Below are positions 1-22,625 of a stretch of DNA of 64,000 bases, one piece after another (the stretch's first letter is position 1; each line of letters opens with the position of its first letter). The notes below the pieces were generated by a model. It worked only from the letters and a program-made list of their open reading frames with translations, had not been told where the DNA came from and ran no database searches. This DNA comes from Citrus sinensis (taxonomy: Eukaryota; Streptophyta; Magnoliopsida; Sapindales; Rutaceae). The stretch lies in assembly GCF_022201045.2 (NCBI RefSeq), contig NC_068564.1:30161001-30225000 (forward strand). The letters run 5' to 3'. Both the position numbers and the translations under genes were made by a program.

Positions 1-895
1 TTATTAGTTAATTTAAATAAATAAAAAATATAAAAATTAAAATGCAAATCATATACTTCCACAAATAGCATGTATCTAACTTTAACTACACATCAAAGCC
101 TCTAATGTGCTTAGATGAAGTCTATTGTGATAAGCGCTTATAAATAGACCACCAATGCTAAAAGCAGATTCAGGAGCAATTGTGGTAATTAGAATAGCCA
201 AAATATCTCTCGCAATTCGGGATAATATAGGATAGTTACCACCATTCACCTTCTACTAAGTTAAAACATCAAATAACTCATCAATAATAAATGGCACTAA
301 CTTTTCACTCAAATAAGTGTCCAGCTCATCTTTTACTTTAACAAAACTAGTAAACCCCGAAATCCATTCAGTTGAACTTCTATAAGAACCTGAAGTCAGC
401 ATAGAATGAGTGGTACTCAAAGAACTAAAGCTATACCCAAGGGAACTAACAACTGATGCACTTTTCACTCAAATAAGTGTCTAGTTCATCCTTTACTTCC
501 CCATTACCAATATTAACAAAACTAGTAAACCCTGAAATTCATTCAGTTGAACTTATAAAAGAACCCGAACTCAGCATAGAATGAGTGGTACTCAAAGAAC
601 TAGAGCTATACCCAAGAGAATTAGCAGCTGATGCATATCTAGCTTTGTACTATTTTTACTATAGTTTGACAATTACTATGCACTATTTGGATATCTAGAC
701 ACAAGAAGTAGCATCGTCTACATAAATAATGGAAAAGTAATACTCAACCTACCCAAGTTTGAACCTAAGATCAAAGATACATGCAACAAACAATATTTCA
801 CTCATGTCATGCCAATACTTATCGAACTTTTCAATCATTTTTTGTGCCGTGATTCTAAATTTATCATATCTAGGAGTTGAAACCCACTCACTTAG
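1..895 (-). pseudogene. hAT transposase relic, C-terminal half
   Basis: Minus-strand translation gives blocks of hAT (Ac/RICESLEEPER-like) transposase in order. From high to low coordinate: a central block around 895-700 (WVSTPRYDKF, then KFDKYWHDM), then the dimerisation region (ELDTYLSEKLVPFIIDE at about 260-320; YPILSRIARDIL and APESAFSIGG at about 120-240; LHLSTLEALMC near 90-125). Several stops and shifts interrupt it, so it cannot make protein. Positions 301-460 are repeated at 461-634. It continues as the right-hand half from 13,434; the gypsy element separates them. The outer end of the transposon lies left of the window. Confidence 0.85.
301..634 (-). repeat. Tandem duplication inside the hAT relic
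   Basis: Two diverged copies lie head to tail: 301-460 (160 bp) and 461-634 (174 bp). Both begin CTTTTCACTCAAATAAGTGT and end with TGATGCA; the second has an extra stretch near 501-516. The duplicated segment encodes part of the region before the hAT dimerisation domain. Confidence 0.85.
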
Positions 896-2280
896 TGTTG
901 TGCAAATTTTAATGTACTCGCAAGCGCACGAATCTATTGTAGTATAGATCTATGGTGACGAGTGTCGATCCCACGAGGAGGTGGATTTTAATTGTGTATA
1001 GAATTAATTTTGTAAATGGGTTGTTGGATTTATGGTGGAAATGATTTGGAATATGCTAAAACTTAAATTAAAATGGCGAGAATAAATTCTAAAGTTGGAA
1101 TTGAAATGGCGAGAATAAATTGAAGAGAATTCTATTAAAATGACGTACTTGGGTATCTGGATCCGTATCAACATGCATCATGGGCTAAATAATCCGTATT
1201 AATGCCAATTAAATCATGAGGGGGGAATCCACACCTCATGAACCACGCTCTAATCAATATGGTGCTAAGGGCTTATCGTGCCAAATAATAATAACCTTGT
1301 ACTAGAGAGCCGGTGAAACCAAGGCGGTACTAGACAAGATTAGTATTATTTGTCGACGAGAAGTCAAAACATCCACAAAAACTAGAGGGGAAGAGAAAAT
1401 AAATTTACCAAATAAAGCCCATGACACATGTTGAGACTTCACCTTCAACCCAAGCTTGAAAGAAAATTAGCCACTCATAATTGAACTAGGGGCAAAATGA
1501 GAATTTATTAAAATACGAAGAAAATACAAGATGGAGAGGGAATTACATAAAATGGATCCCAAAAATGGATTCAGAGATATCAAATTAGGGGGGAGAGGCC
1601 CCCTTTTTATAGATACATGGAGTAAATCATGGCCATCGGATTAAAAACAGTTTGGACGCTCAGGATTGCGCCACGTCATCAGTCAACAGTCCACGGTTTG
1701 ACCACGCGGATGAACAGTAACACGGTTTGACCCGACTTTGAACAGTAACGCGGTTTGACCCGGATGAACAGTAACGCGGTTTGGTTGAAAATAATCCTGT
1801 GTGATGCATGCACCGTACGCGAGATTTTTCGTCCACTGATATGCTGCCACGTCACCATCAACAGTACATAAGAATTTTAGTCCAACAGGATCGTGACACC
1901 TCATCAGTCAATGCCACATCATCGGTCAATGCCACGTCATCATCCGTCTATGTGAACAGTGTCGTGAACAGTAACGTATACAGTACCGTACACGTGAATA
2001 GTACCGTACATGTGAATAGTGCCATTTTTCCTTTTATACTCCTCCTAAGGTTTTTGACCGTCCTGAGTTCAAAAGTGATGTCCGTTTTGCCGTCTGATTT
2101 CTCCTTTATTGTGAAATGACTATAATGCCCCTAAAATACATAAAATACTTAATTAAAATAAAACACATGTAATTAAATCACAAGAAGGTTAAATACATAA
2201 AAGTAAGGGTTGTTAATAAGACTTGAAATGTAAAATGACGGTTTTCTCCTTTATAAATATGCATTTTCTAACACTCAACA
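896..2280 (-). repeat. 3' LTR of the gypsy element
   Basis: 1,385 bp, bounded on the plus strand by TGTTGTGC and CTCAACA. It matches 12,044-13,428. It contains three families of short tandem repeats: GAACAGTAACGCGGTTTGAC-type units at about 1,708-1,790, an 18-bp TCATCGGTCAATGCCACG-type unit at about 1,902-1,947, and an 18-bp AGTACCGTACACGTGAAT-type unit at about 1,951-2,025. ORFs of 60-103 codons inside it are repeated exactly in the other LTR and are not taken as genes. Confidence 0.95.
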
Positions 2281-2292
2281 CACCCCCCAACC
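2281..2292 (-). other. Polypurine tract of the gypsy element
   Basis: On the minus strand the bases next to the 3' LTR read GGTTGGGGGGTG. This is the expected place and composition of the plus-strand priming tract. The core GGTTGGGGGG recurs twice further into the element (minus strand of 3,691-3,700 and 4,131-4,140). Confidence 0.8.
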
Positions 2293-4227: not shown

Positions 4228-4896
4228 TTACAAGCGGAGAGTTAAATCTAATTTGTACTTCTTACTGCGGCTACTGTTACCATCATTATTTGGGCGCTCC
4301 AACACAAAGGTCCAGGGGTCTGGCTCCGGTTTATAAGCTTGTAACAGATCAAGTAGCTCATTAGCAGTGTGAGCACAAATAAAGAGTTTTTTCACATTAG
4401 CGGGAATGAAATAGTTTTTTATTGCATGGTTAAGAAATGCGATAAAGCCATCATAAAAGTTATTGACATTTAACAAACCGATGGGTTTTTGGTGGATGTG
4501 CAGATGGGCCCAAGATGCTAGCGTGATAAGTGCCTCTAGTGTTGCAAGATCTCCTGGAAGGAAAATAAAAGCATCAGCATGATTAAGCATTTCAGTTATT
4601 CTTTCTTGCATACCTGAGACGACTAACTCTTCTCCAGTTGATGAGTCAGACGAACTGCCCAATGGTTTTAAGACTCTTGGGATGATACCTAACACTTGAC
4701 TTCCTCTGATAAAAGCTGCTTCTGAGACCATTTTTGATAACCCTCGATTACCTCCTCCATACACCAAGTGTAATTTTCTCGCTGCTATGCTTCGACCAAG
4801 ATCTATGGCTGCCTCAACGAACTCTTTATGTTTGCCATATGTAAATCCAGAAAGCACACAAATGTTCTTGAATTGTCTATTGGGAGTAGCTGCCAT
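4228..4896 (-). CDS. LOG-like (cytokinin-activating family) protein carried by the gypsy element
   Basis: A 222-residue frame starting at the ATG at 4,894-4,896; the longer frame upstream begins only at a TTG. It aligns along its length with plant LONELY GUY proteins (about 215 residues), which release cytokinin bases from cytokinin riboside 5'-monophosphates in the cytosol. Visible landmarks are NICVLSG near the N-terminus, LVYGGGNRGL at about 44-53, a retained Arg (MQERITEM, about 96-103), DAFIFLPGD at 108-116 and KPIGLLNV at about 137-144. The family signature PGGxGTxxE reads PGDLATLEA (114-122): two glycines and the final Glu are changed, and the Lys after the catalytic Arg is Ile. It may bind nucleotide but probably has little or no LOG activity. 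The frame is intact, 319 nt downstream of the Cys4 ORF, inside a retrotransposon bounded by matching LTRs. Host gene capture is inferred. Confidence 0.85.
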   Translation of the reverse strand: MAATPNRQFKNICVLSGFTYGKHKEFVEAAIDLGRSIAARKLHLVYGGGNRGLSKMVSEAAFIRGSQVLGIIPRVLKPLGSSSDSSTGEELVVSGMQERITEMLNHADAFIFLPGDLATLEALITLASWAHLHIHQKPIGLLNVNNFYDGFIAFLNHAIKNYFIPANVKKLFICAHTANELLDLLQAYKPEPDPWTFVLERPNNDGNSSRSKKYKLDLTLRL

Positions 4897-5214
4897 TGTG
4901 ATACTTCGCAAAAATAATTTGTGAGTGCTTGACAAAGAAAATCACATTTAAGAGTCTTGGTGATAGTGGGTCATAGTTGTGTATGAGGTCACATGTCAGT
5001 GTCAAATAACGCGTAAAGCACGTGGCTCGCAAGTCAAAAAGAAAACAGTAAAAAGGAAAAAGCAAACAGTAATAAAATTATTAAAGACAATAATGCAAAC
5101 AATAAGACAATAGTGAAATAAAATAACAATAAAGTAAAAGGATATTTACAGGTAGTTGCGACTGTGGCTCACATCTTCCTCTGGTTTTACGTCCAGAAAC
5201 GGCTTGAACGCCCT

Positions 5215-5772
5215 CTATGGGTCGAGGATAGGCTTCCTATCCAGTTTTCTTATAAACTGGCAAACAGGGTCGTTTATAGTCAGATTCCCGAGACTATATC
5301 GTGCATGCTCTTTCTGGAACAATGGCCATAACTGGAGAATCGCTCCTTGCACATATCCACTGGGATGCGTTTCAAGAGACAAAAGGATATCATCCAATGA
5401 CTCCTTATTCAAGCCATCCCTAATGAATTGAATCTTATCTTCCCTGTTATCAGACATCATTCCTAAAGAACATGGGTTTTTATTGCAACTCATTCTGGCA
5501 CACTTATGACAAGCAACAGAAATTCTTCGAGCTCGTCGTTTTCTTGCATAATTTCCTTTACCACAACCAGGCATGTATGCAATAAATTTTGGAGGTAACT
5601 CACCTGCCGATCGTACTTTTGCCTCAATTAACCAACGGATATCAGCAGGTATGTTATTCCTCATGAGTAATCGCATGCGTTCGGACCGAGCTTTATAGAT
5701 CGTAAGGAGGGCATTCTGAGGAAGTGAAGGGAATCGCTTGTGAAGCTTCGCTAGAATCTCGTTTCTGTCCAT
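5215..5772 (-). CDS. Basic Cys4 (putative zinc-finger) protein of the gypsy element
   Basis: 185 residues from an ATG at 5,770-5,772. It is not a standard retrotransposon domain. Residues 1-65 look helical and charged. An Arg/Lys run (YARKRRARR, 75-83) is followed at once by CHKC (88-91), C96 and C101, a CX2CX4CX4C pattern suited to binding zinc. The rest (about 105-185) is moderately hydrophobic and unrecognised. A basic run directly before a short Cys cluster recalls the small nucleic-acid-binding, silencing-related proteins of some filamentous plant RNA viruses such as carlaviruses; this is an impression from architecture, not an alignment. It lies between the small coiled-coil frame and the LOG-like frame, same strand. 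Nucleic-acid binding is inferred. Confidence 0.7.
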   Translation of the reverse strand: MDRNEILAKLHKRFPSLPQNALLTIYKARSERMRLLMRNNIPADIRWLIEAKVRSAGELPPKFIAYMPGCGKGNYARKRRARRISVACHKCARMSCNKNPCSLGMMSDNREDKIQFIRDGLNKESLDDILLSLETHPSGYVQGAILQLWPLFQKEHARYSLGNLTINDPVCQFIRKLDRKPILDP

Positions 5773-5913: not shown

Positions 5914-6147
5914 TTAAAATCGTCCTCTTATTGAATTTACCTCAAGCTCCAACTGGATGTCGTAAACACTTCTCTCAATGTCTCTGAGTTGGTGTTCTAA
6001 ACCCTCAACATAGGCTACTAACTCTGGTGGTTGTAGAGCCCAAATGCGTTGTGTTTTACAAAATTGAATTTGCCTTTTGAGATGAGTTTTGACACGTTGA
6101 AGTGGTTTAAGAATGTTCAGGAGGAACGGTCTAAGTATGAGACTCAT
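5914..6147 (-). CDS. Small basic coiled-coil protein of the gypsy element
   Basis: 77 residues from the ATG at 6,145-6,147; the frame stays open upstream and would add a strongly hydrophobic segment (LPLSFLLSLLI) if a non-ATG start or splicing were used. After a short hydrophobic start come a basic stretch (KTHLKRQIQF) and an acidic helical tail (VEGLEHQLRDIERSVYDI) that could form a coiled coil. It starts 129 nt after the pol stop. Athila-type elements often have an env-like frame with membrane segments here, but there is no sequence match to call this an envelope protein. Function unknown. Confidence 0.5.
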   Translation of the reverse strand: MSLILRPFLLNILKPLQRVKTHLKRQIQFCKTQRIWALQPPELVAYVEGLEHQLRDIERSVYDIQLELEVNSIRGRF

Positions 6148-6275
6148 GATTAACAATGATAAGAGAAAACTTAATGGTAAAATAAACACACTTATGCAAA
6201 AACAATTTCAATTAGCAAAAGAATAATATAAAGAAAGAAAACAAAATCAAATCAACGAAAAGAAAGAAAAAAAAA

Positions 6276-9200
6276 TCAATTCAAATCTGGTGGGTCACTC
6301 AAATTTATTTCGGTGTCTTCTCCACGTGGTTGGTATTCTAGATATGGCTTTAATCTTTGACCATTAACTTTAAACGTGACACCGTTCTTTGGGTCCTTAA
6401 TTTCAATTGCCCCATGTGGAAAAACAGTATGAACAATAAAGGGACCAGACCAACGAGAGCGTAACTTACCTGGGAATAGGTGCAAGCGAGAATTGAATAA
6501 AAGCACTTTCTGACCTGGAGTGAACGATTTTCTCATAACGTGCTTGTCATGGAAGACTTTCATTCGTTGCTTGTAAATCTTGGCATTTTCGTATGCATCA
6601 TTGCGAATTCCTTCAAGTTCTGCCAGCTGTAATCTTCTTTCTGAGCTGGCTTGCTGCATGTCAAAATTGAATTTCTTGATGGCCCAATATGCACGATGCT
6701 CGAGTTCCACAGGTAGGTGGCAAGCTTTTCCATACACTAGCCTGTAGGGTGACATCCCAATCGGGGTCTTGAAAGCCGTTCTATATGCCCATAAGGCATC
6801 ATCAAGTCTTAATGACCAATCTTTTCTGTCCGGCCTCACCGTCTTTTCTAATATGTGCTTTATTTCTCGATTGGAGATCTCAACTTGGCCACTGGTTTGC
6901 GGATGATACGGGGTCGCCACTTTGTGTGTGATTGAATACTTTGTCAAAAGTGCTTTGAATGTTTTGTTACAAAAGTGGGCACCACCATCACTGATTATTG
7001 CTCGAGGGAATCCAAAGCGTGAAACAATGTTGCTTTTCAAAAATGCTATCACCACCTTGTGATCATTGGTCCTACATGGAATTGCTTCTACCCATTTTGA
7101 TACGTAGTCAACAGCAACCAATATGTATTGATGGCCAAAAGAAGGGGGAAAGGGTCCCATGAAGTCGATACCCCATACGTCAAAAATCTCAACCACTAAA
7201 ATTGGATTTAGTGGCATCATGTTCCTTCGTGTAATGCTTCCCATTCGTTGACACCTATCACATGAAGAACAGAAAGTGTAAGCGTCTCGAAATATAGATG
7301 GCCAATAGAAACCACATTGTAAAACTTTAGTCGCTGTCTTCTTAGCACTGAAATGGCCTCCACAAGCTTGTTCATGGCAGAATGAAAGGATATTCTGAAT
7401 TTCACTTTCTGGGACACATCGTCTAACAATTTGGTCTGCACAATACTTGAACAAATATGGGTCATCCCAAAAGAAATTCTTTATCTCTGCAAAGAATTTA
7501 GCCTTATCTTGCTTGGTCCAATGCTCTGGAAGTTTACCTGTAACAAGATAATTAACTATATCAGCATACCAAGGTAATACTTCCACACTCATTAATTGTT
7601 CATCTGGAAATGACTCATTTAATGGTAATTGTTCTATTATTGTGTCAAAATGGAGACGAGAGAGATGGTCCGCCACAACATTTTCTGACCCTTTCTTATC
7701 TTTGAATTCCAAGTCAAATTCCTGCAAAAGTAACACCCAACGAATTAGTCTAGCTTTTGCATCTTTCTTTGTGAGAAGATATTTAAGAGCAGCATGATCT
7801 ATGAACACAATTATTTTACAACCAATGAGATAAGATCGAAATTTTTCTAATGCAAACACTACTGCTAGCATTTCTTTTTCAGTAGTTGAATAGTTCAACT
7901 GTGCATCATTTAATGTCATACTAGCATAGTAAATAACATGGGGAATTCGATCAACTCTTTGTCCTAATACTGCTCCTACTGCATAATCAGATGCATCACA
8001 CATGAGCTCAAATGGTAATTTCCAGTTCGGGGCCTGAATGATGGGTGATGATGTCAACAACTGTTTTAATTTTTCAAACGCCATAAGACATGAATCATTA
8101 AAGATAAAAGGTACATCCTTAGCAAGTAAATTGCATAAGGGTCTAGAAACTTTGCTAAAATCTTTAATGAAACGTCTATAGAAACCAGCATGCCCAAGGA
8201 AAGATCTTACTTCTCTGACTGTTTTGGGTGGAGGAAGATTAGAAATGAGATCCACCTTGGCTTTGTCAACCTCAATACCTTTGCTCGAAATGATGTGACC
8301 GAGAACAATACCTTGTTTTACCATAAAATGACATTTCTCCCAATTTAAGATCAAGTTCTTCTCGATACATCTCTGCAGAACTAGTGTTAGATGATGTAAA
8401 CATTGATCAAACGAGTTGCCAAAGATAGAAAAGTCATCCATAAAGACTTCAAGGAATCGTTCAACCATATCAGAAAAAATGCTCAACATGCATCGTTGAA
8501 ATGTAGCAGGTGCATTACATAATCCAAATGGCATTCTCCTATATGCAAATGTGCCAAAAGGGCAAGTGAAAGTAGTTTTCTCTTGATCTTTTGGTGCTAT
8601 GGGAATCTGATTATATCCTGAGTAACCATCTAGAAAGCAATAAAATTCGTGGCCTGCTAATCTATCAAGCATTTGATCGATAAATGGTAAAGGAAAATGA
8701 TCTTTACGTGTGACAGAATTCAATTTTCTATAATCAATGCATACACGCCATCCTGTAGTTACTCTAGTTGGTATCAATTCATTATCTGCATTCGTAACTA
8801 CTGTGACTCCTGACTTTTTGGGGACAACTTGTACAGGACTGACCCATGAACTATCAGAAATTGGGTAAATGATACCTGCGTCTAATAGCTTAAGGACTTC
8901 TGTTCTAACAACTTCTTTCATATTAGGATTTAACCGACGTTGCATCTCCCTAGTAGTTTTAGCATTTTCATCAAGGTGAATGTAATGCATGCAGTCTACT
9001 GGGTTTATACCTTTAATGTCTGCTATGGTCCATCCTAATGCCCCTTTGTGCTCTTTCAAAACATCCAACAACTTACCTTTTTGTTCGTCATTGAGGGATG
9101 CTGAGATGATTACCGGTAGAGTACTTTCTTCTCCCAAAAACGCATATTCCAAAGTGTTGGGCAATGGTTTGAGCTCGAGTTTCGGTGGTGATTCTGATGA

Positions 9201-11654
9201 TGGAATGAGTTGCTTCTCTGATGGTGCTAGTTGCTCAACTCTTGACTTCCATTTATTAGTGTCCATAGATGGTGCTGAGTCAAGCAGGGCATTGACCTCA
9301 TCAACCGATCTGTCAATATCAAAATCAAAACCAAAGTGAGTTAAACATGTTTGTAAAGGATCATCACTAAGGTTTGAAAGAAAAGTATTATCAACTATTG
9401 TTTCTATTAAATCCACATCAACAATTCCATCATCTGCACTGTGAGGTTGTTTGACAATGTTGAAAATGTTTAGCTCCATAGTCATGTTGCCGAAGGACAA
9501 TTGCATATTTCCGGTCCTACATTGAATATGAGCATCTGCAGTTGCCAAGAAAGGTCGGCCTAGAATAATGGGGATGTGCTTCCTTGAGTCCTGTATTGGT
9601 TGAGTGTCAATTACAATGAAATCAACAGGAAAATAAAACTTGTCTACCTGGATAAGCACGTCCTCCACAATACCACGAGGTATTTTCGTGGACCGATCTG
9701 CAAGCTGTAACACCACTGGAGTTGGGTGTAATTCTCCCAGTCCAAGTTTCACAAACACAGAGTAAGGCAATAAATTTACACTAGCTCCTAAATCCAACAA
9801 AGCATTCTCAATTGTGTGGTTCCCTATACTACATGAGATAGTGGGGGAGCCTGGGTCTTTGCATTTTAAAGGAATTTTATGTTGAAGTATAGAACTAACG
9901 TTTTCTGTTAAAAATGCCTTCTTTTGAACATGCATGTTTCTCTTTTTAGTACAAAGGTCTTTAAGAAACTTGGCATAAGATGGAACTTGTTTAATAGCAT
10001 CAAGTAAAGGGATGTTAACACTTACCTGTTTGAAGATTTCAAGAATCTCACCTGTGGATTTTCCCTTTTTTCCTTTAGCTAACCTCTGAGGAAATGGAGC
10101 CTTGGGAACATATTCTTGTGGGTTGGTTTCTTCTTTCTCCTCCGGTGATGAGTCATCAACATTCACAGGTACAATTTGATTTTCTTTTGTCACTGGCATC
10201 TCCACTTTGTTGTCGACTTCCTTTCCTTTTCGCAAGGTCATTACTGCTTTGACTTCTCCATGCTGCTGTGGTGAACTGGTACTTGCTTCATGCACTCCTT
10301 TAGGGTTAGGCACTGGTTGACTTGGAAACTTACCTTTCTCAACGGTCATTGCCAAGGTCTGAACTGAAGAAGCAAGTTGTCCCACCATCTTCTCGAGGCT
10401 TGAAACTGATTGGGCTTGTGAGTTGAAGCCCGTTCTCAACTCATTTCGTAGTCCATCAATGGTGCGGTTCTGTTGCTCAATCGTGGAGTGAGTAACATTC
10501 CTGAAATTCTGGAATGCATCCTCCCATGGTCTAGGTTGAGAGTGGTTCTGGTTCTGATTGTATGGTCTAAATGGTGGCTGAGAGGCTTGAGGATTTTGTG
10601 GAATTGGTGGAGCTGGAGCTGCTGGTCCGTTCTGTTGGAATCCTTGAGACCATGAAAAATGGGGGTGGTCTCTCCATCCAGGGTTATATGTGTTGGAGTA
10701 TGGGTTGTAATTCGATGGTTTTCTCATTACACCTATGGCATTGGCTTGATCTGAGTATGAGTCATGGTCATGTGGCTCTGTTGATTTAGCAGTCGATAAT
10801 AATGCTATTTGTCGAGAGAGACCTTCAATTATCGCTTTGACTTCTTTAATTTCTGAACTTGATTCGCCAATGTGAACCTCATTTACTCCCTTAATTCTTC
10901 TAGTATTCCTGAGTGATCGACTCCGTTGTTGGGAATTATCCGCTTGTCGCTGGAAGAATTCCCAAATCTCTGATGCACTTTTTGACATTAGCTCTCCTCC
11001 ACTTGTTGCCATTAGCCATTCTTGCACATTCGGTAGTAATCCCTCCAAAAAGTATTGACATTGGTGCCATTTCTCGTACCCATGATGTGGACACTTCAAG
11101 AGTAGCCCATTGAATCGCTCCCAAGTTTCGAAAAATTGCTCGTCTTCTCTCTGGGTAAACTCTGAGATTTCCCTGCGAATAGCATTGGTTTTATGCACTG
11201 GGAAATATTTATTCAAAAATTTCGTTACCATTTGTTCCCATGATGCAATGCTATTAGCAGGCAATGTATTAAGCCATGAACGAGCCCTATCCTTTAAAGA
11301 AAATGGGAATAGTCTAAGTTTAACATCATCGTCTGAAAAATTTTCATATTTAAAAGTTTGACAAATGGCATGAAAATCATTCAGATGATTATATGGATCC
11401 TCATTTTCTAGGCCATAAAATGTGGGGAGACAATTTAGCACACTAGGTTTTAATTCAAAACTCCTAGCAGCTACATTTGGGTATCTTATACATGATGTGC
11501 TCAAATTTGCTAAAGGACTGAAATAATCTTTAAATGGCCTCTCCTGTGGTTGCAAATCCATTTTATTTTTTACTTGTTTGTGTGTGCGAAGTGTTTTCTC
11601 AAGTTCAAGGTCTATAGGTTCAAGATTGGGTAATAATGACCTTCGACCATGCAT
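6276..11654 (-). CDS. Gag-Pol polyprotein of the gypsy element
   Basis: A single open frame of 1,792 residues from the ATG at 11,652-11,654; a longer frame starts only at a TTG. Order: Gag (about 40-260, with RSWLNTLP and FLNKYFP), a Pro/Gln-rich linker with no CCHC knuckle seen, aspartic protease (DLGAS, Asp621), reverse transcriptase ([14 protein letters not shown] with Asp1073-Asp1074), RNase H ([13 protein letters not shown]) and integrase with a Cys/His zinc region (CSSCDRCQR) and a DD35E triad (Asp1497 in GIDFMG, Asp1556 in SDGGAHF, Glu1592 in GQVEISN). Integrase after RNase H defines Ty3/gypsy. All catalytic residues are present and there is no frameshift, so it looks functional. Expression is expected from the LTR promoter at 12,751-12,760. 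Confidence 0.97.
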
Positions 11655-12019
11655 GCAAAACAAATAAAATAAAAAAATAAAGATGGGAACAAAATAAATA
11701 AAAAATAAAGAAGAGGGAGAAATTACGATACTAACCTTATTGCGCTATTAAAACCTTTCTATAAAAATACACAAAAACAAATACGTGAAATAAATTAACT
11801 AAAAATAAATTAATAAGATAAACAAAAAAAAATTACAAAGAAAAATAAATTGAAAATTAAATTACAGAATTTTAAAGAAGAGAAAGAGAAAAGAAATACT
11901 AACCTTTAAATGTAGATTCACTTTTTTTTTCTTTTTCTTTTAATAAAAAAAAATACAAGAAAAAAAAAATAAAAGAAATTATTCACAAAAATTAATTCTA
12001 TGAATTAAAATTACTTACC
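11655..12019 (-). other. Leader of the gypsy element
   Basis: 365 bp between the primer binding site and the Gag start. T-rich on the minus strand apart from the Gag-proximal end, low complexity, with no supported coding frame or structure. Confidence 0.7.
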
Positions 12020-12037
12020 TCCCCGGCAACGGCGCCA
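12020..12037 (-). other. Primer binding site (tRNA-Asp type)
   Basis: The minus strand reads TGGCGCCGTTGCCGGGGA, 6 nt inside the 5' LTR. It is complementary to the 3' end of plant tRNA-Asp including CCA (tRNA sequence recalled from general knowledge). This fixes the 5' LTR as the right-hand copy. Confidence 0.9.
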
Positions 12038-12043
12038 AAAACT

Positions 12044-13428
12044 TGTTGTGCAAATTTTAATGTACTCGCAAGCGCACGAATCTATTGTAGTATAGATCTA
12101 TGGTGACGAGTGTCGATCCCACGAGGAGGTGGATTTTAATTGTGTATAGAATTAATTTTGTAAATGGGTTGTTGGATTTATGGTGGAAATGATTTGGAAT
12201 ATGCTAAAACTTAAATTAAAATGGCGAGAATAAATTCTAAAGTTGGAATTGAAATGGCGAGAATAAATTGAAGAGAATTCTATTAAAATGACGTACTTGG
12301 GTATCTGGATCCGTATCAACATGCATCATGGGCTAAATAATCCGTATTAATGCCAATTAAATCATGAGGGGGGAATCCACACCTCATGAACCACGCTCTA
12401 ATCAATATGGTGCTAAGGGCTTATCGTGCCAAATAATAATAACCTTGTACTAGAGAGCCGGTGAAACCAAGGCGGTACTAGACAAGATTAGTATTATTTG
12501 TCGACGAGAAGTCAAAACATCCACAAAAACTAGAGGGGAAGAGAAAATAAATTTACCAAATAAAGCCCATGACACATGTTGAGACTTCACCTTCAACCCA
12601 AGCTTGAAAGAAAATTAGCCACTCATAATTGAACTAGGGGCAAAATGAGAATTTATTAAAATACGAAGAAAATACAAGATGGAGAGGGAATTACATAAAA
12701 TGGATCCCAAAAATGGATTCAGAGATATCAAATTAGGGGGGAGAGGCCCCCTTTTTATAGATACATGGAGTAAATCATGGCCATCGGATTAAAAACAGTT
12801 TGGACGCTCAGGATTGCGCCACGTCATCAGTCAACAGTCCACGGTTTGACCACGCGGATGAACAGTAACACGGTTTGACCCGACTTTGAACAGTAACGCG
12901 GTTTGACCCGGATGAACAGTAACGCGGTTTGGTTGAAAATAATCCTGTGTGATGCATGCACCGTACGCGAGATTTTTCGTCCACTGATATGCTGCCACGT
13001 CACCATCAACAGTACATAAGAATTTTAGTCCAACAGGATCGTGACACCTCATCAGTCAATGCCACATCATCGGTCAATGCCACGTCATCATCCGTCTATG
13101 TGAACAGTGTCGTGAACAGTAACGTATACAGTACCGTACACGTGAATAGTACCGTACATGTGAATAGTGCCATTTTTCCTTTTATACTCCTCCTAAGGTT
13201 TTTGACCGTCCTGAGTTCAAAAGTGATGTCCGTTTTGCCGTCTGATTTCTCCTTTATTGTGAAATGACTATAATGCCCCTAAAATACATAAAATACTTAA
13301 TTAAAATAAAACACATGTAATTAAATCACAAGAAGGTTAAATACATAAAAGTAAGGGTTGTTAATAAGACTTGAAATGTAAAATGACGGTTTTCTCCTTT
13401 ATAAATATGCATTTTCTAACACTCAACA
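12044..13428 (-). repeat. 5' LTR of the gypsy element
   Basis: 1,385 bp, same boundaries and internal repeats as 896-2,280. It adjoins the primer site on its left and the hAT relic on its right, with the CTTAG target duplication at 13,429-13,433. Confidence 0.95.
12751..13087 (-). promoter_or_regulatory. Predicted LTR promoter with three bZIP-type sites
   Basis: The minus strand has CTATAAAAAG (12,751-12,760), a good TATA box. Upstream in the direction of transcription lie three copies of TGACGTGG (12,819-12,826; 12,995-13,002; 13,080-13,087), the core bound by plant bZIP factors of the ABA, stress and unfolded-protein pathways. Two of the three sit outside the 18-bp repeat block. The same arrangement occurs in the 3' LTR. 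Inducibility is inferred. Confidence 0.55.
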
Positions 13429-13433
13429 CTTAG

Positions 13434-14600
13434 GCGCAATCTGATATCACACACATGGAGAAATAGATTATATGTGGATAGTTAGTACTAGAAAATAATG
13501 TTGGCAATCATAAAAACATTTCAAATCGTTTTCTAAGGCACTAGCCAATTGCCAATCATACTTACTAGGCAAACATTTATACTTTCCATCAATGTTCTTC
13601 AATGGACAAAAAACATTCTTATAATGTAATGCATAACATATCATGAGATAAGTAGAATTCTACCTAGTTGGACAGTCTTGCACTAGTTTTCTACCAGAAG
13701 TAATGTCTAATTTACTTGCATTCTCATCAAATGTTGATTTCCTTTTAGTTGATCCTAACAAAAAAATAACTCTCACAAATGTTTGTAGTCAGATCACCAA
13801 TCACACTTAAACCATCCTTTACAATCAAATTCATAATGTGGGCACAACAACGAGCATGAAACTTTTGTCCACCCAAAATGAGATCATTTTTATCTTGTAC
13901 CAACAACATAAAATCAATCATATGATCATTAGTAGCAACATTGTCAACAATTATAAAGGGTAACTTGCGCTCAATGTTGAACTCCAATAACGAACCCATC
14001 AGCTTATCACAAAGCACTTGGTCTGTATGAGAACCAGACACTTCCAAAAAGCTAATAAAAAAAACATAAATTGATGGCGGATTACTAATTAAAAAATCAG
14101 ATTGATCATTAATAATAAAAAAATCAGTTTGATCATTAATAATTAAAAATATCAAATTGATCATTAATAATTAAACAAAACATAAAAGTAACAATTTTAT
14201 CTCAAAAGTATGTGTCGTAATGCCCAAGCGTCATCAATAAAGTGTGCAGTGATTGCCATATATGCATTTGTTTGATTTTTTGCAATCCATATATCAGCTG
14301 TAATGGCAATTTTACCTTAAGTTTGCTCCAACATAGTGACACACTAATATATTTGGCCCTTTCACACTCATACATGTCTAAAATCTCATTTTTGATAGTA
14401 TTTTGAGACACTAGCTTCCATAATTAATTTAGAGAAGACATAACACCCTTTGGCCCCTCTACAATACTTAGAGGGTACTTGTGCATGACAATAGCACGTG
14501 GCATTTTTCTCCTCGTAACAGCAAGATCAAAATGATCTACCATGATCTTCCCTTTTTAACTAGCAACTTTCTTTGCCGGTGGAAACTCTCAATTTTAAAA
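13434..14600 (-). pseudogene. hAT transposase relic, N-terminal half
   Basis: Minus-strand blocks in order: HFDLAVTRRKMPRAIVMHKYP at about 14,470-14,540, NTIKNEILDMYE at about 14,360-14,400, the region equivalent to the first catalytic block (about 14,210-14,330, shifted), then KLPFIIVDNVATNDHM and FHARCCAHIMNLIVKDGL at about 13,800-13,970, then the DCPTR-stop-NSTYLM block at about 13,640-13,680, where the conserved Trp is a stop. Multiple stops and frameshifts. It continues directly into 1-895 across the gypsy insertion. Confidence 0.88.
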
Positions 14601-17306: not shown

Positions 17307-17320
17307 TGGTATCAAAGCTT
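17307..17320 (+). other. Primer binding site of the copia element
   Basis: TGGTATCAAAGC starts 2 nt after the LTR; it differs by one base from the initiator-Met tRNA complement usual in copia elements. Confidence 0.85.
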
Positions 17321-19753
17321 GGTTCTTAACCAAGATTCAGGTATGGCTACTCAGAAGGTCGATTTGGAGAAGTTTAATGGCAGAAACGACTTCAACATGT
17401 GGAAGGTTAAAATCGAGGCTCTCTTGGTTACTCAAGGTCTTGGTGATGCACTTGAAGCTTCAACCAAGATCAAAGGGAATGGAGTATCATCTTCAAAGAC
17501 TCAAGAGCAGATGGCTGAAATTGACAAGAAGGCAAAAGGTACCATAATCCTTAGCCTTGCTGATTCTGTAATTAGAGAAGTTGCCAAGGAGACATCTGTT
17601 GCTGGTTTGATGAAGAAATTGGAAAGCCTATACAAGAAGAAATCCTTGGCCAACAGGCTGTATATCAAGAAAAGCATGTTCACTCTAAAGATGACAGAAG
17701 GCTCATCACTGGATAAGCACATTGATGAATTCAATCAAGTGTGTGATACACTTGCAACAATTGATGAAGCTTTAGATGATGAGGGAAAAGCTTTGCTACT
17801 GGTTAGCTCTCTTCCAGAGTCTTACAAAAATTTTGCTGATGCTCTCATGTATGGGAGACAAACTCTCTCATTGGATGAAGTTAAGTCAGCTCTAAACACA
17901 AGGGAGCTACATGAAAAGAGACAAAATCTTAATCAAGAAACTGGGGAAGGGCTAACAGCAAAGGGTCAGTATTATAAGAACACAGAAAAGAAAAAGAAGC
18001 AATGGAAGGCCAAAGACAAGAACAAGACTCTTAAGTGCTTCCAGTGCCATAAGGAAGGTCACTTTAAGAGAGATTGTCCAGAAAGGAAGAACAAACAGTA
18101 CAAAGAGCAAAGAAGTCAAAATGGTGATGCATCAGTAGTTGAAGAAGAAGGATATGAGTCAGCCGGTGTCCTAATTGCCTCTGATGAAGATCATGAAGGT
18201 AAGTGGGTGCTTGACTCAGGGTGTTCTTTTCATATGTGCCCTTTTAAACATCATTTCTCTGAGTATCAAGAATATGATGGTGGTAGGGTGATGGTGGGGA
18301 ATGATGCAATTTGTAGAGTTATAGGGATTGGGGTTATTAAATTGAAATTGCATGATAACTCAATTCTTGAACTCAAACAAGTGAGGCATGTACCTGATTT
18401 AAAAAGGAATTTGATCTCATTGGGGATGTTGGATCAGATAGGTTGTGTTGTTAAGGTCCAGCAGGGTATAATGAGTGTTGTAAAGGGGTCATTGGTTCTG
18501 TTAAGAGGAATCAGGAAGAATGGTCTCTATGTGTTAGAAGGGACAACTGTGACAGGGATGGTGTCAGTGTCATCTAGCTCTAATGTTGACAAAACTAACC
18601 TATGGCACTTAAGGCTTGGACATATGAGTCTGAGAGGCCTTAAAGAGTTGTCAAAACAGGGGATGTTAGGCAGTAATACAATTGGTGAGATGGTGTTTTG
18701 TGAAGATTGTGTCCTAGGGAAATCTACAAGAACCAGTTTTAAGTCATCAGTTCACACTACTAGAAGCATTCTGGATTACATACACTCAGACTTGTGGGGA
18801 CCTGCACAAGTAGTATCACTGAGAGGTGCAAGATATTTTTTGTCTATAATTGATGATTTTTCAAGAAGGGTCTGGATTTATGTGCTCAAGAGTAAAGAAC
18901 AGGTGTTTGAAAAATTCAAGAACTGGAAGGTCTTGGTTGAAAAACAGACTGGAAAAACAGTAAAGAAGTTGAGGACTGATAATGGATTAGAGTTTTGCAA
19001 CCAGGTGTTTGATGAATTTTGTGCAAAGGAAGGTATTGCAAGGCATAAAACTGTAAGAATGACACCTCAGCAGAATGGCTTAGCTGAGAGGATGAATAGG
19101 ACTCTCATGGATAAGGTGAGGTGCATGATGATTCAAGCCAAGCTACCTAAGAATTTGTGAGCTGAGATTCTCAACACAGCTTGCTACCTGGTGAATTTAA
19201 GCCCCTCCACTACCATTGAATTCAAGATACCTTTTGAGCTTTGGTATGGTAAACAAGCCAGTTATAAAGACCTTAAGGTGTTTGGTTGTCTGGGTTATGC
19301 TCACATAAGCCAAGGAAAACTAGCACCCAGAGCACTGAAATGTGTGTTCATTGGGTATCCAGAGGGAACCAAGGGTTATAAGCTTTGGTGTACTGATCTC
19401 TCTCCACCCAGGTGCATAGTAAGCAGAGATGTCAAGTTCAATGAAGAAGCAGCAGTGGATAGTATTCAAAGAAACAGTGTGAGAGCTGATCAAGTTCATG
19501 ATGAACATTTTGAGGTGGAGTCACCTAGCAACCTGAATCAGAATGATGATACAGAATCAGCTGGAAGTGCTGATGATATTGGAAGACAAGAGTCACTTCA
19601 AGAAGCTGGATCAACTCAATCACAAGTAATGGATTATCAATTGACAAGAGATAGACAGAAGAGACAAAGCAAAGCACCTAAGAGGTATGGTTATGCAGAT
19701 CTGATTGCTTTTGCATTACATTCTGCTCATGAGATAAATGCTGAAGAACCACA

Positions 19754-21000
19754 TGAAATACAAGTATGCAACCCAAGAGGGGGGGTGAATTGGGATTCTA
19801 AAAATTATTCAATTTATTAAATAAAAACTTAATACAATTATAAATCAAATTCAAAGCAATAACAATTAAGATGATCACAATATAAAAAGATAAGGGAAGA
19901 GGGATTCAAACACCGAGATTTTTACGTGGTTCGGCCAACCTCGCCTACGTCCACGCCTCCAAGCTTTCCGGGCTTGAGGATTCCACTAAGCAAGCCTCCA
20001 AGGCTTCAAATGCTTACACTTGACTTCCAAGGTGTCAATGGACCTTTACAACAAGAGATTATCCCCAATCTCTTAACCCAAATGTATCCCAACACTTACA
20101 ATCACTCAAAGTAAAAGATTACAAACTGTTTTGCCTCTCACAATATATAAGATTACACAATGATGCTTAATATGTGAGTAGATGAAGCAAGAATGTGTTC
20201 TAAGCTCTATGAAGATTGTATTCTCAAATATTAGCTCAAATGGTCGTGTTGTGATCAATCTTCTTTGAATTTGAATGAGCTTATTTATACTTGGATTTGA
20301 AAATCTAGCCGTTACAAACTGTCGGACAGAAAACGGTTCGCCGTTAACCATTAACGGTTAACCGTTTCGGTTGGTCAAAGTTACCATTGGGCCAGATTTC
20401 AAATAAACGGTTTGCCGTTTAGGATTGCCCTTTCGCCGTTAACATCCAGAGACCTGCAAGAAGAGCATTTGTTATCCATTTACACTAAACGGTTAAGGAC
20501 TTGCATGAAGTAACGTTTCTGGATATTATCGGTTGACCGTTTAAAATAAACGATTTGCCGTTTGGCTCCAGTAACCTGCACAACAATTCAGCCTTATCAG
20601 TTTTCGTTAATCAATGCCAGATGAGGACAACCTTCAATTCTGGACGTTATCGGTTAACCGTTTAAAATAAACGGTTCACCGTTAGGTTCCAGTAGCCTTC
20701 TCATCTTGGGTGTTTTCTGTTTTTCATAAACAGTTAGAGGTTTAGGAAATGTGTTACTCTCTGCCTTTAATCGGTTAACCGTTTAAAATAAACGGTTCAC
20801 CGTTTATGACCAGAATTGTAATTTTAAACAAGTTTTTGCAGAGAATTTCTTTCTAATTTGAAAATCCATCTTTTATGAAGAAATAAGGCAATGATTAGAA
20901 GGGTTTTCGTTTATTCAGAAATAGCTCCAATATTTTTGTCAAAATACATTTAAAATTTGTTATCATCAAAATCAATATTATTAACATATTTATGTTAACA
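19754..21000 (-). mobile_element. Solo LTR inserted in the copia element
   Basis: 1,247 bp with a 5-bp target duplication CCACA (19,749-19,753 and 21,001-21,005). On the minus strand it begins TGTTAACATAAATATG and ends in TTTCA, after CACCCCCCCTCTTGGGTTG, an ending typical of many plant LTRs. It contains no primer site, polypurine tract or coding region, so it is a solo LTR left by recombination. Three exact-spaced palindromic repeats lie inside. Confidence 0.88.
20530..20805. repeat. 121-bp tandem repeats with palindromic core
   Basis: The core CGGTTAACCGTTTAAAATAA followed by ACGGTTCACCGTT begins at 20,530, 20,651 and 20,772, exactly 121 bp apart. A partial, shifted copy lies near 20,333-20,445. 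Each core contains CGGTTAACCG and can form a cruciform with the following AAACGG. It is confined to the solo LTR. Confidence 0.85.
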
Positions 21001-22625
21001 CCACAGAATTTCAAAGAAGCCATTAACTGTCAGTATGCAAAAGAATGGAAGAAATCTATGGATGAAGAAATGAACTCACTGTACAAGAATTGTACCTGGG
21101 AACTGGTTAAAAGACCTAAGAATAGAAGGATTGTTGGTTGTAAGTGGATATACAGAATCAAATGGGGTATGACTATAGCTGAACTAAGGAGGTTTAAGGC
21201 TAGGTTAGTTGCAAAGGGGTACACTCAGATGGAGGGTGTTGATTTTAAGGAAGTTTTCTCCCCTGTAGTAAGGCATACTTCCATAAGAGTGTTGATGGCT
21301 ATAACAACAACAAAGAATCTGGAGCTGGAACAGCTTGATGTTAAGACTGCTTTTTTGCATGGAAATCTTCAGGAAGAAATTTTCATGAGTCAACCAGAAG
21401 GATATGAAACTCCTGACAGAAGAGATTATGTATGCTTGCTAAAGAAATCTCTCTATAGCCTGAAGCAATCTCCTAGGCAATGGTACCTCAAATTTGATGA
21501 GTTTATAACCACTCATGGATTTCAGAGGTGCAATTATGATTGCTGTGTCTACTTTAAACAGCTAAGTCATGAGAAACATATCTATCTACTGCTATATGTA
21601 GATGATATGTTGATTGCTTGTGAAAAAAAGTCTGAAATAGATGCTTTGAAGACATTGCTTGGCACTGCATTTGACATGAAGGATTTAGGAAGTGCTAAAA
21701 GGATATTGGGAGTTGATATAAGAAGGAACAGAAGTGAAGGGCTGGTAATTTTGTCTCAAGAGAAATACTTGAAGAAAATACTGGAAACTTTTGATATGGA
21801 GGATTCTAAACCTGTACAAGGCCCCTTAGCAGCACACTTCAAACTTTGCAATCTATATTGTCCAAAGTCTGAAGAAGAAAGACTTGAGATGGCCAATATT
21901 CCATATGCAAAGGCAGTAGGATGCCTTATGTATGCCATGGTGCTAACTAGGCCTGACATCTCACATGTTGTGAGTGTTGTCAGCAGATACATGGCATCTC
22001 CAGGCAAAGAACACTAGAAATGGGTGAAATGGATATTAAGGTATCTAAATGGTACTCTGAATGTTGGTCTGGTATATGGAAAGAACTCTGGAACAGAAGA
22101 AGGGTTGTGGGGCTATGTAGATTCTGACTATGCAGGAGATCTGGACAGAAGAAGATCACTTACAGGATACTTGTTTATGTTAAATGGCTGCCTGATAAAT
22201 TAGAAGGCAAACTTGCAGCATGTAGTGGCATTTTCCACAACAGAAGCAGAATTTACAGCTGCCACTGAAGCTGCAAAGGAGGTCATTTGGCTTAAGGGCT
22301 TAATCACTGAGCTCGGTTTAAAACAAGAGTCTGTACCAATTTTCTGTGACAGCTCCAGTGCACTGCATTTGTGTAAGAATCCAGCTCACCATGAGAAGAC
22401 CAAACATATTGATATTAAGCTTCACTTCATAAGAAATGAAGTCTCCAGGGGAGTTATCAAGATGGTTAAAATACATACTGATGACAACCCCTCTGACTTG
22501 CTTACGAAGGTAGTTCTTGCAACTAAGTTCAAGAAATGTTTGGACTTAGTTGGTATCTACAAAACCTGATATGAATCAGTTGGTGAATGTATCAGTTGCA
22601 GGGTGTTTGATTCAAGGTGGAGTAT

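Follow-up and report, generated by a model that had tools for sequence, protein, structure and literature searches.

Retrotransposons are usually pictured as carrying Gag-Pol only, and the finding of an open reading frame related to LONELY GUY (LOG) proteins within an LTR retrotransposon of Citrus sinensis raises the question of what such a frame does for its carrier, and whether its product is still a cytokinin-making enzyme. The frame lies on the minus strand at 4896..4228 (ATG at 4896, 222 codons plus a stop) of the window, the 64,000-nucleotide stretch of contig NC_068564.1 (positions 30,161,001 to 30,225,000) analyzed here. Its interior has no stop, and the plus strand of 4228..4896 is stop-rich and not open. 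It falls in the Lysine_decarbox/LOG family, with its active-site motif lost; scanned as a TTG-started 235-codon version it matches the Pfam model Lysine_decarbox (E = 1e-27), and it matches the Arabidopsis LOG structures 2a33 (E = 4e-45) and 1ydh (E = 2.4e-40). Judged by these matches, its kinship to LOG is far beyond chance, as a first-pass annotation of the window had proposed for this stop-free frame. We consider it likely that the locus is a recent, autonomous-looking Ty3/gypsy insertion primed by tRNA-Asp, with a 3′ cassette composed of ORF_C, an ORF_B that resembles viral nucleic-acid-binding proteins (NABPs), and a LOG pseudoenzyme whose role involves a host partner.

A recent Ty3/gypsy insertion with extra frames 3′ of pol

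The element is bounded by two LTRs, at 896..2280 (the 3′ LTR in element orientation) and 12044..13428 (the 5′ LTR), both on the minus strand, which have zero differences over 1,385 bp and TG..CA ends (TGTTG..CAACA); the target-site duplication CTTAG is read on either side, at 891..895 and 13429..13433. An open Gag-Pol frame of 1795 codons (6276..11663, minus strand) encodes gag, aspartic protease, reverse transcriptase (RT), RNase H, and integrase. The 3′ end of tRNA-Asp(GTC) can pair with a primer-binding site at 12020..12037 (minus strand), and direct reading places a polypurine tract, GGTTGGGGGGTG on the minus strand, at 2281..2292, adjoining the 3′ LTR. The paired LTRs with their duplication, the ordered gag-protease-RT-RNase H-integrase in one 1795-aa frame, the primer-binding site, and the polypurine tract together identify the element as Ty3/gypsy.

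The matching LTRs, the shared CTTAG, and the common orientation of LOG and Gag-Pol were all correctly described in the first-pass annotation. Its placement of LOG between pol and the polypurine tract also holds, although two further frames intervene on the pol side, ORF_C (91 codons, 5914..6189, minus strand) and ORF_B (185 codons, 5215..5772, minus strand), and about 1.9 kb with no listed frame of at least 80 codons separates LOG from the 3′ LTR, so that LOG is not immediately beside the polypurine tract. We take extra frames 3′ of pol to be compatible with the Athila lineage. The identical LTRs point to a very recent insertion; the element had been called young, which is apt for the insertion but not for the capture of LOG, which predates the subfamilies described below.

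When the flanks of the element (501-895 and 13434-14200) are joined, they form an open stretch on the minus strand which, by eye, we take to resemble part of a hAT-type transposase, and the insertion may therefore have occurred inside or close to an older DNA transposon. Elsewhere in the window, a Ty1/copia-type polyprotein (gag, integrase, and RT by eye) is spread over several frames of the plus strand at 17319-22017.

LOG in other copies of the family

A search of the C. sinensis genome with the LOG frame, covering 300 Mb in 11 contigs, returned 2118 candidates, and one with ORF_B returned 1883; in each case 148 of the 150 best-scoring candidates have no stop, although these best-150 sets are biased toward intact copies. 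A 31-base stretch comprising the LTR end and primer site occurs exactly 561 times in the genome, and we used the first 40 of these matches, on contig C1, as a sample chosen independently of LOG, taking 1.3 kb at the expected place of LOG from each; selection by an exact 31-base match means that heavily mutated copies are missed. Of the 40 copies, 37 carry LOG where it should lie; within the 1.3 kb fetched for the other three (L057, L105, and L107) it was not found. Thirty-five align over their full length, two (L056 and L101) being covered only in part, and 25 of the 35 have no stop or frameshift (counting L054, which lacks seven codons in frame), with stops or frameshifts in the other 10. LOG is thus a regular part of this family, and the coexistence of open frames and decaying ones is what a transposon family would be expected to show. 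A private capture by the window's copy is ruled out by these 37 copies and by the 2118 genome candidates, and the absence of LOG from other family members, which would have spoken against the first-pass annotation, was not what we found.

The window's copy belongs to subfamily SF1. Two more subfamilies, SF2 and SF3, came to light when P0206, a gene model from a second subfamily that itself holds LOG pieces, was used as query, and 17 regions were picked by hand from its matches, nine aimed at SF2 and eight at SF3. All 17 have LOG sequence after ORF_B; LOG is open in two SF2 and four SF3 copies, with stops, frameshifts, or deletions in the remainder, and in two open SF3 copies listed in full both ORF_B and LOG are intact. 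Pieces of ORF_B and LOG are joined in the citrus gene models P0051, P0074, P0082, P0125, P0132, P0206, and P0238, joins that were presumably made by predicted splicing.

ORF_B, ORF_C, and a conserved stretch after ORF_B

ORF_B appears to be a relative of plant-virus nucleic-acid-binding proteins, as matches to the Pfam models Viral_NABP and Carla_C4 suggest. The window's own ORF_B is sub-threshold for both (Carla_C4, 16.5 bits against a cut-off of 20.9; Viral_NABP, 14 bits against a cut-off of 23), and SF3 ORF_B is also below the cut-offs (20.8 and 20.3 bits, respectively). Of seven relatives presented individually, six pass both, among them P0216 with 32.5 bits for Viral_NABP (cut-off 23) and 30.1 bits for Carla_C4 (cut-off 20.9). 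At E ≤ 0.1, Carla_C4 is matched by 35/37 aligned members and Viral_NABP by 34/37; in a larger set, at E ≤ 1e-3, the counts are 48/59 (best E, 3.7e-8) and 50/59 (best E, 6.4e-9). A protein search found 261 relatives, and those named among the best 120 come from Citrus, Xanthoceras, Acer, and Populus; most of these 120 carry a precomputed Carla_C4 match and many a Viral_NABP match. The numbers of members make it likely that the Xanthoceras, Acer, and Populus relatives also lie within gypsy elements.

The comparison is with the Cys-rich NABPs of carla-, allexi-, and mandariviruses, with which the ORF_B relatives share both domain matches; ORF_B differs in its length (~182-185 aa), in having N- and C-terminal parts of its own, and in lying beside a gypsy pol. 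In the part of the literature on these proteins that we draw on, the viral NABP-type proteins figure as silencing suppressors and determinants of pathogenicity, and the chrysanthemum virus B protein as a transcription factor (PMC12172455). The likeness could also have come about by convergence, in a basic stretch and in Cys residues, instead of by descent, as the shortness of the Carla_C4 match (~26-48 residues), the sub-threshold scores of the window's copy, and weak matches of a few members to unrelated families (SHQ1 in 4/37, best E = 0.0018) might indicate. We think convergence rather unlikely, since the Viral_NABP match spans 53-87 residues in the eight ORF_B proteins shown, extending past the Cys motif, and recurs at E ≤ 1e-3 in 50 of the 59 relatives. 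None of the ORF_B relatives sought in viral contigs was confirmed, the search of ORF_B against solved structures gave a single match (E = 0.1), and the structures predicted for ORF_B and for one of its relatives have mean pLDDT values of 57.1 and 62.5, too low to interpret.

ORF_C is conserved in the fetched SF2 and SF3 regions, the amino acid identity being 52-53% in one region of SF2 and three of SF3. The best-conserved part of the 3′ accessory region is found at the end of ORF_B and just beyond it, where the bin 5247-5173 has 96-99% identity among subfamilies. The stretch after the ORF_B stop (5140..5217, minus strand) is bounded by CCCATAG and GTAAATATCC and has four differences in 71 nt in L074 and L077, and 4-12 across the 17 regions; this near absence of change contrasts with LOG dS values of 0.54-0.82 between the same subfamilies. 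In P0200 and P0176 a peptide similar to this stretch is fused to ORF_B. An internal exon, a readthrough tail, and an RNA element are all possible, and an RNA fold of the stretch (z = −1.33) led nowhere.

Origin of the LOG frame

Nine LOG loci of the citrus host were located by motif pattern, and all nine have several exons; the element's frame is intronless, from which we infer capture from a spliced mRNA. In a tree with the host LOGs, those of the elements group as a single clade (support, 100) whose stem measures 1.18 substitutions per site. Among the host genes L043 comes nearest, 44-48% identical to the element LOGs, but its grouping with them has a support of only 56, so it is no more than a candidate donor. 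Among the best 120 of 764 protein matches to the LOG frame, every named relative is from Citrus x changshan-huyou.

The distance from the host genes bears on one possible role, in which the element protein is a dominant-negative partner of host LOGs that lowers local cytokinin, its C-terminal tail being irrelevant. The LOG family match is kept, and in LOGs the dimer interface is where the active sites form, according to the portions of a structural study of CgLOG used here (PMC4979012); however, at ~36-48% identity with the host LOGs compared, heterodimers are doubtful, and we regard this role as unlikely.

Loss of the LOG active site

In that study's account of the active site, Arg99 and Glu122 of CgLOG are the proposed catalytic residues; Gly116, Ala117, Gly118, Thr119, and Ser19 bind phosphate; Met96, Lys100, and Glu121 contact the adenine; and Met96, His97, Lys100, Glu125, and Trp129 contact the prenyl group. 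Alanine mutants of the key residues, Ser19 excepted, have nearly no activity (PMC4979012). In the sampled element LOGs, Arg99 and Glu121 are kept in 37/37, Met96 and Trp129 in 36/37, and Thr119 in 36/36 readable copies. Six others are replaced throughout: Lys100 by Ile and His97 by Gln (37/37 each), Glu122 by Ala or Val and Glu125 by Thr (37/37 each), and, in the phosphate loop, Gly116 by Asp and Gly118 by Ala or Val (36/36 readable each). The PGGxGTxxE motif accordingly reads PGDLATLEA or a variant of it, its last position never being Glu in the 37 sampled copies. The first-pass annotation had read both this motif and the Ile that takes the place of Lys beside the catalytic Arg (MQERI) as we do. 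LOGs of SF2, SF3, and P0093 have the same losses, with Ala, Ser, or Val at Glu122, and because the same residues are lost in all three subfamilies the sequences date the loss to before the subfamilies. All nine citrus host LOGs have canonical motifs, one odd residue in L046 being due to stitching at an exon edge.

Set beside LOG enzymes (AtLOG3, 2a33; AtLOG8, 1ydh; and CgLOG), the element LOG shares the family match, the catalytic Arg, Thr119, Glu121, and Trp129; it differs in the six replacements, in its lack of introns, and in its EAR-like tail. A working LOG, as defined by motif, is ruled out by the replaced PGGxGTxxE and active-site residues. The element protein is unlikely to make cytokinin, because the catalytic Glu, the phosphate-loop Gly residues, and Lys100, which are needed in the bacterial CgLOG, have all been replaced.

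An enzyme with a changed substrate could nonetheless be imagined, a nucleotide N-glycosidase or nucleotide binder acting on nucleotide pools or on the precursors of reverse transcription. Nearly every sampled copy retains Arg99, Thr119, Glu121, and Trp129; the five element LOGs aligned preserve much of the YGGG loop together with the remainder of the fold, and the derived residues are as well conserved as the rest. We nevertheless judge this quite improbable, given Ala at the catalytic Glu122, a change that nearly kills CgLOG in the mutants described in the source consulted (PMC4979012), and the replacement of both phosphate-loop glycines. The best reading of the LOG frame, as far as its sequence can tell, is an old intronless capture that has been kept as a nonenzymatic protein.

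Selection on LOG and ORF_B

Selection was measured as pairwise Nei-Gojobori (NG86) ratios. Between the three subfamilies, LOG dN/dS is 0.17-0.26 overall at dS values of 0.54-0.82 (SF1-SF3, 0.200 with dS 0.75; SF1-SF2, 0.168-0.174; SF2-SF3, 0.212-0.256), ratios based on a small number of selected copies, in one of which a stop was coded as missing; for ORF_B, SF1 versus SF3 gives 0.242. Ten stop-free SF1 copies, including the window's, have a LOG dN/dS of 0.163. In the first half of the sample, nine stop-free copies give 0.180 versus 0.389 for nine broken or deleted copies (L054 being counted here as decayed), and since stop-free subsets are skewed to low ratios, we note that the figure over all 19 LOG copies from this half, which is free of that selection, is 0.303. 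Two old SF2 copies compared with each other reach 0.705.

By this measure, the lineages that multiply keep both the LOG and the ORF_B proteins, because dN/dS is low between subfamilies for both and, for LOG, higher in broken copies; dead copies drift. Neutral decay of LOG in the multiplying lineages is ruled out by the between-subfamily ratios and by the 0.180 of the stop-free copies, and the neutral decay that would have undercut the first-pass annotation is likewise not seen in the sample, though 10 of 35 full-length copies are broken; its proposal that a host-type LOG was captured and retained (37/40 sampled copies) is borne out. That LOG is a functionless passenger, copied along and decaying, is very improbable: the stops or frameshifts in those 10 copies and the higher ratios of decayed copies fit such a passenger, but the between-subfamily ratios, at dS 0.54-0.82, and the several open copies in SF1 and in SF3 disfavor it.

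An EAR-like tail and a proposed role

The LOG fold is followed by a variable linker and then by a C-terminal end that reads KLDLTLRL in SF1 and SF2 or DLDLTLRL in SF3; in the window's copy this EAR-like tail (LxLxLxL) occupies 4231..4254 (minus strand). The exact KLDLTLRL end is present in 61/120 relatives (the best 120 of 764), the rest having variants or being truncated, and LxLxL is kept in 34 of the 36 readable sampled copies. It was not found in the six readable host LOG C-termini (L040 to L045), the ends of L039, L046, and L047 not having been recovered. LxLxL is one class of EAR repression motif, and LxLxLxL forms are mostly C-terminal, according to the relevant part of a review (PMC9956375). 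The oomycete effector HaRxL21 binds TOPLESS through a C-terminal EAR motif, and a section heading in the same paper states that the EAR motif by itself is not sufficient for TPL interaction (PMC7446885). The element LOG has a C-terminal EAR-type motif in common with effectors of the HaRxL21 type, but HaRxL21 is a secreted oomycete protein for which the portion of that paper used here reports TOPLESS binding (PMC7446885), whereas the element LOG is known from sequence alone.

A short LxLxL end can arise by chance, and one is present in the last 12 residues of 5 of the 237 stop-to-stop frames of at least 60 residues in the window. Within SF1 copies, the conservation of the tail ranks 29th best of 215 eight-residue windows, and its codons offer too few synonymous sites for a selection test of the tail alone. 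We interpret the tail sequence as suggesting a recruiter of TOPLESS-type corepressors.

In our preferred reading, that of a LOG pseudoenzyme with a host partner, a spliced LOG mRNA would have been captured once, long before the present insertion, and the derived protein would no longer make cytokinin but would be of use to the element inside host cells, most probably via such a partner. The EAR-like tail may recruit TOPLESS-type corepressors and thereby turn down host genes, and through its LOG dimer surface the protein could, in addition, poison host LOG dimers; the neighboring ORF_B may bind RNA or DNA and serve as an anti-silencing factor or a transcription factor, like its viral relatives. 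A bolder version, which we offer tentatively and hold to be rather doubtful, is a pathogen-style, effector-like cassette of plant LTR retrotransposons, in which one component would be a flexivirus-type NABP, its gene having passed between plant RNA viruses and retrotransposons (either way), and the other, in citrus, a dead LOG whose EAR tail recruits TOPLESS; selection would have kept both to blunt host silencing or reprogram host transcription.

Relation to known elements and implications

Athila-like elements similar to LOGL4 are reportedly spoken of in the abstract of a 2011 study by Steinbauerova et al. YgdH, a domain of LONELY GUY proteins, was reported in 2022 in LTR-retrotransposon consensuses of C. 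sinensis and Citrus clementina, and also in those of Populus trichocarpa once a filter is disabled; the citrus result is described there as in line with Steinbauerova et al. 2011 (as cited in PMC9289625). LOG capture in citrus gypsy elements is therefore already published, as the sections of that paper on these domains make plain, and the suggestion in the first-pass annotation that a LOG-carrying LTR retrotransposon was undescribed does not stand (PMC9289625). The citrus YgdH elements have the same domain as ours and very likely belong to the same family, a comparison made by description and not by sequence; relative to the sections of PMC9289625 considered, the active-site analysis, selection test, tail, and NABP-like neighbor appear here only. 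No lost active site, tail, or NABP-like frame is described in the portion of the literature on LOG or extra frames in LTR retrotransposons that we covered, subscription journals lying mostly outside it, and nothing relevant on NABP-type genes in retrotransposons was found in the literature searched, one query being poorly focused. What we see as additions to the published citrus capture are the NABP-like neighbor, the EAR-like tail, and the loss of the active site in a protein that purifying selection still maintains. The gypsy AlkB elements of Phalaenopsis likewise combine an LTR retrotransposon with an extra host-like frame; their AlkB m6A demethylase, as presented in the parts of the paper concerned, retains its cofactor residues and has demonstrated activity, whereas the citrus LOG has lost its catalytic residues (PMC9289625).

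For citrus annotation, these results carry a warning, as entries named for the cytokinin riboside 5′-monophosphate enzyme include transposon pseudoenzymes. If ORF_B is truly kin to the NABPs of plant RNA viruses, gene exchange would link LTR retrotransposons and flexiviruses, and the kinship would suggest a way to seek anti-silencing functions in transposons. The hundreds of copies in citrus (561 exact primer sites) provide material for a partner search, and a hormone enzyme that has lost its chemistry and is under purifying selection across subfamilies points to an element that needs a host-facing protein.
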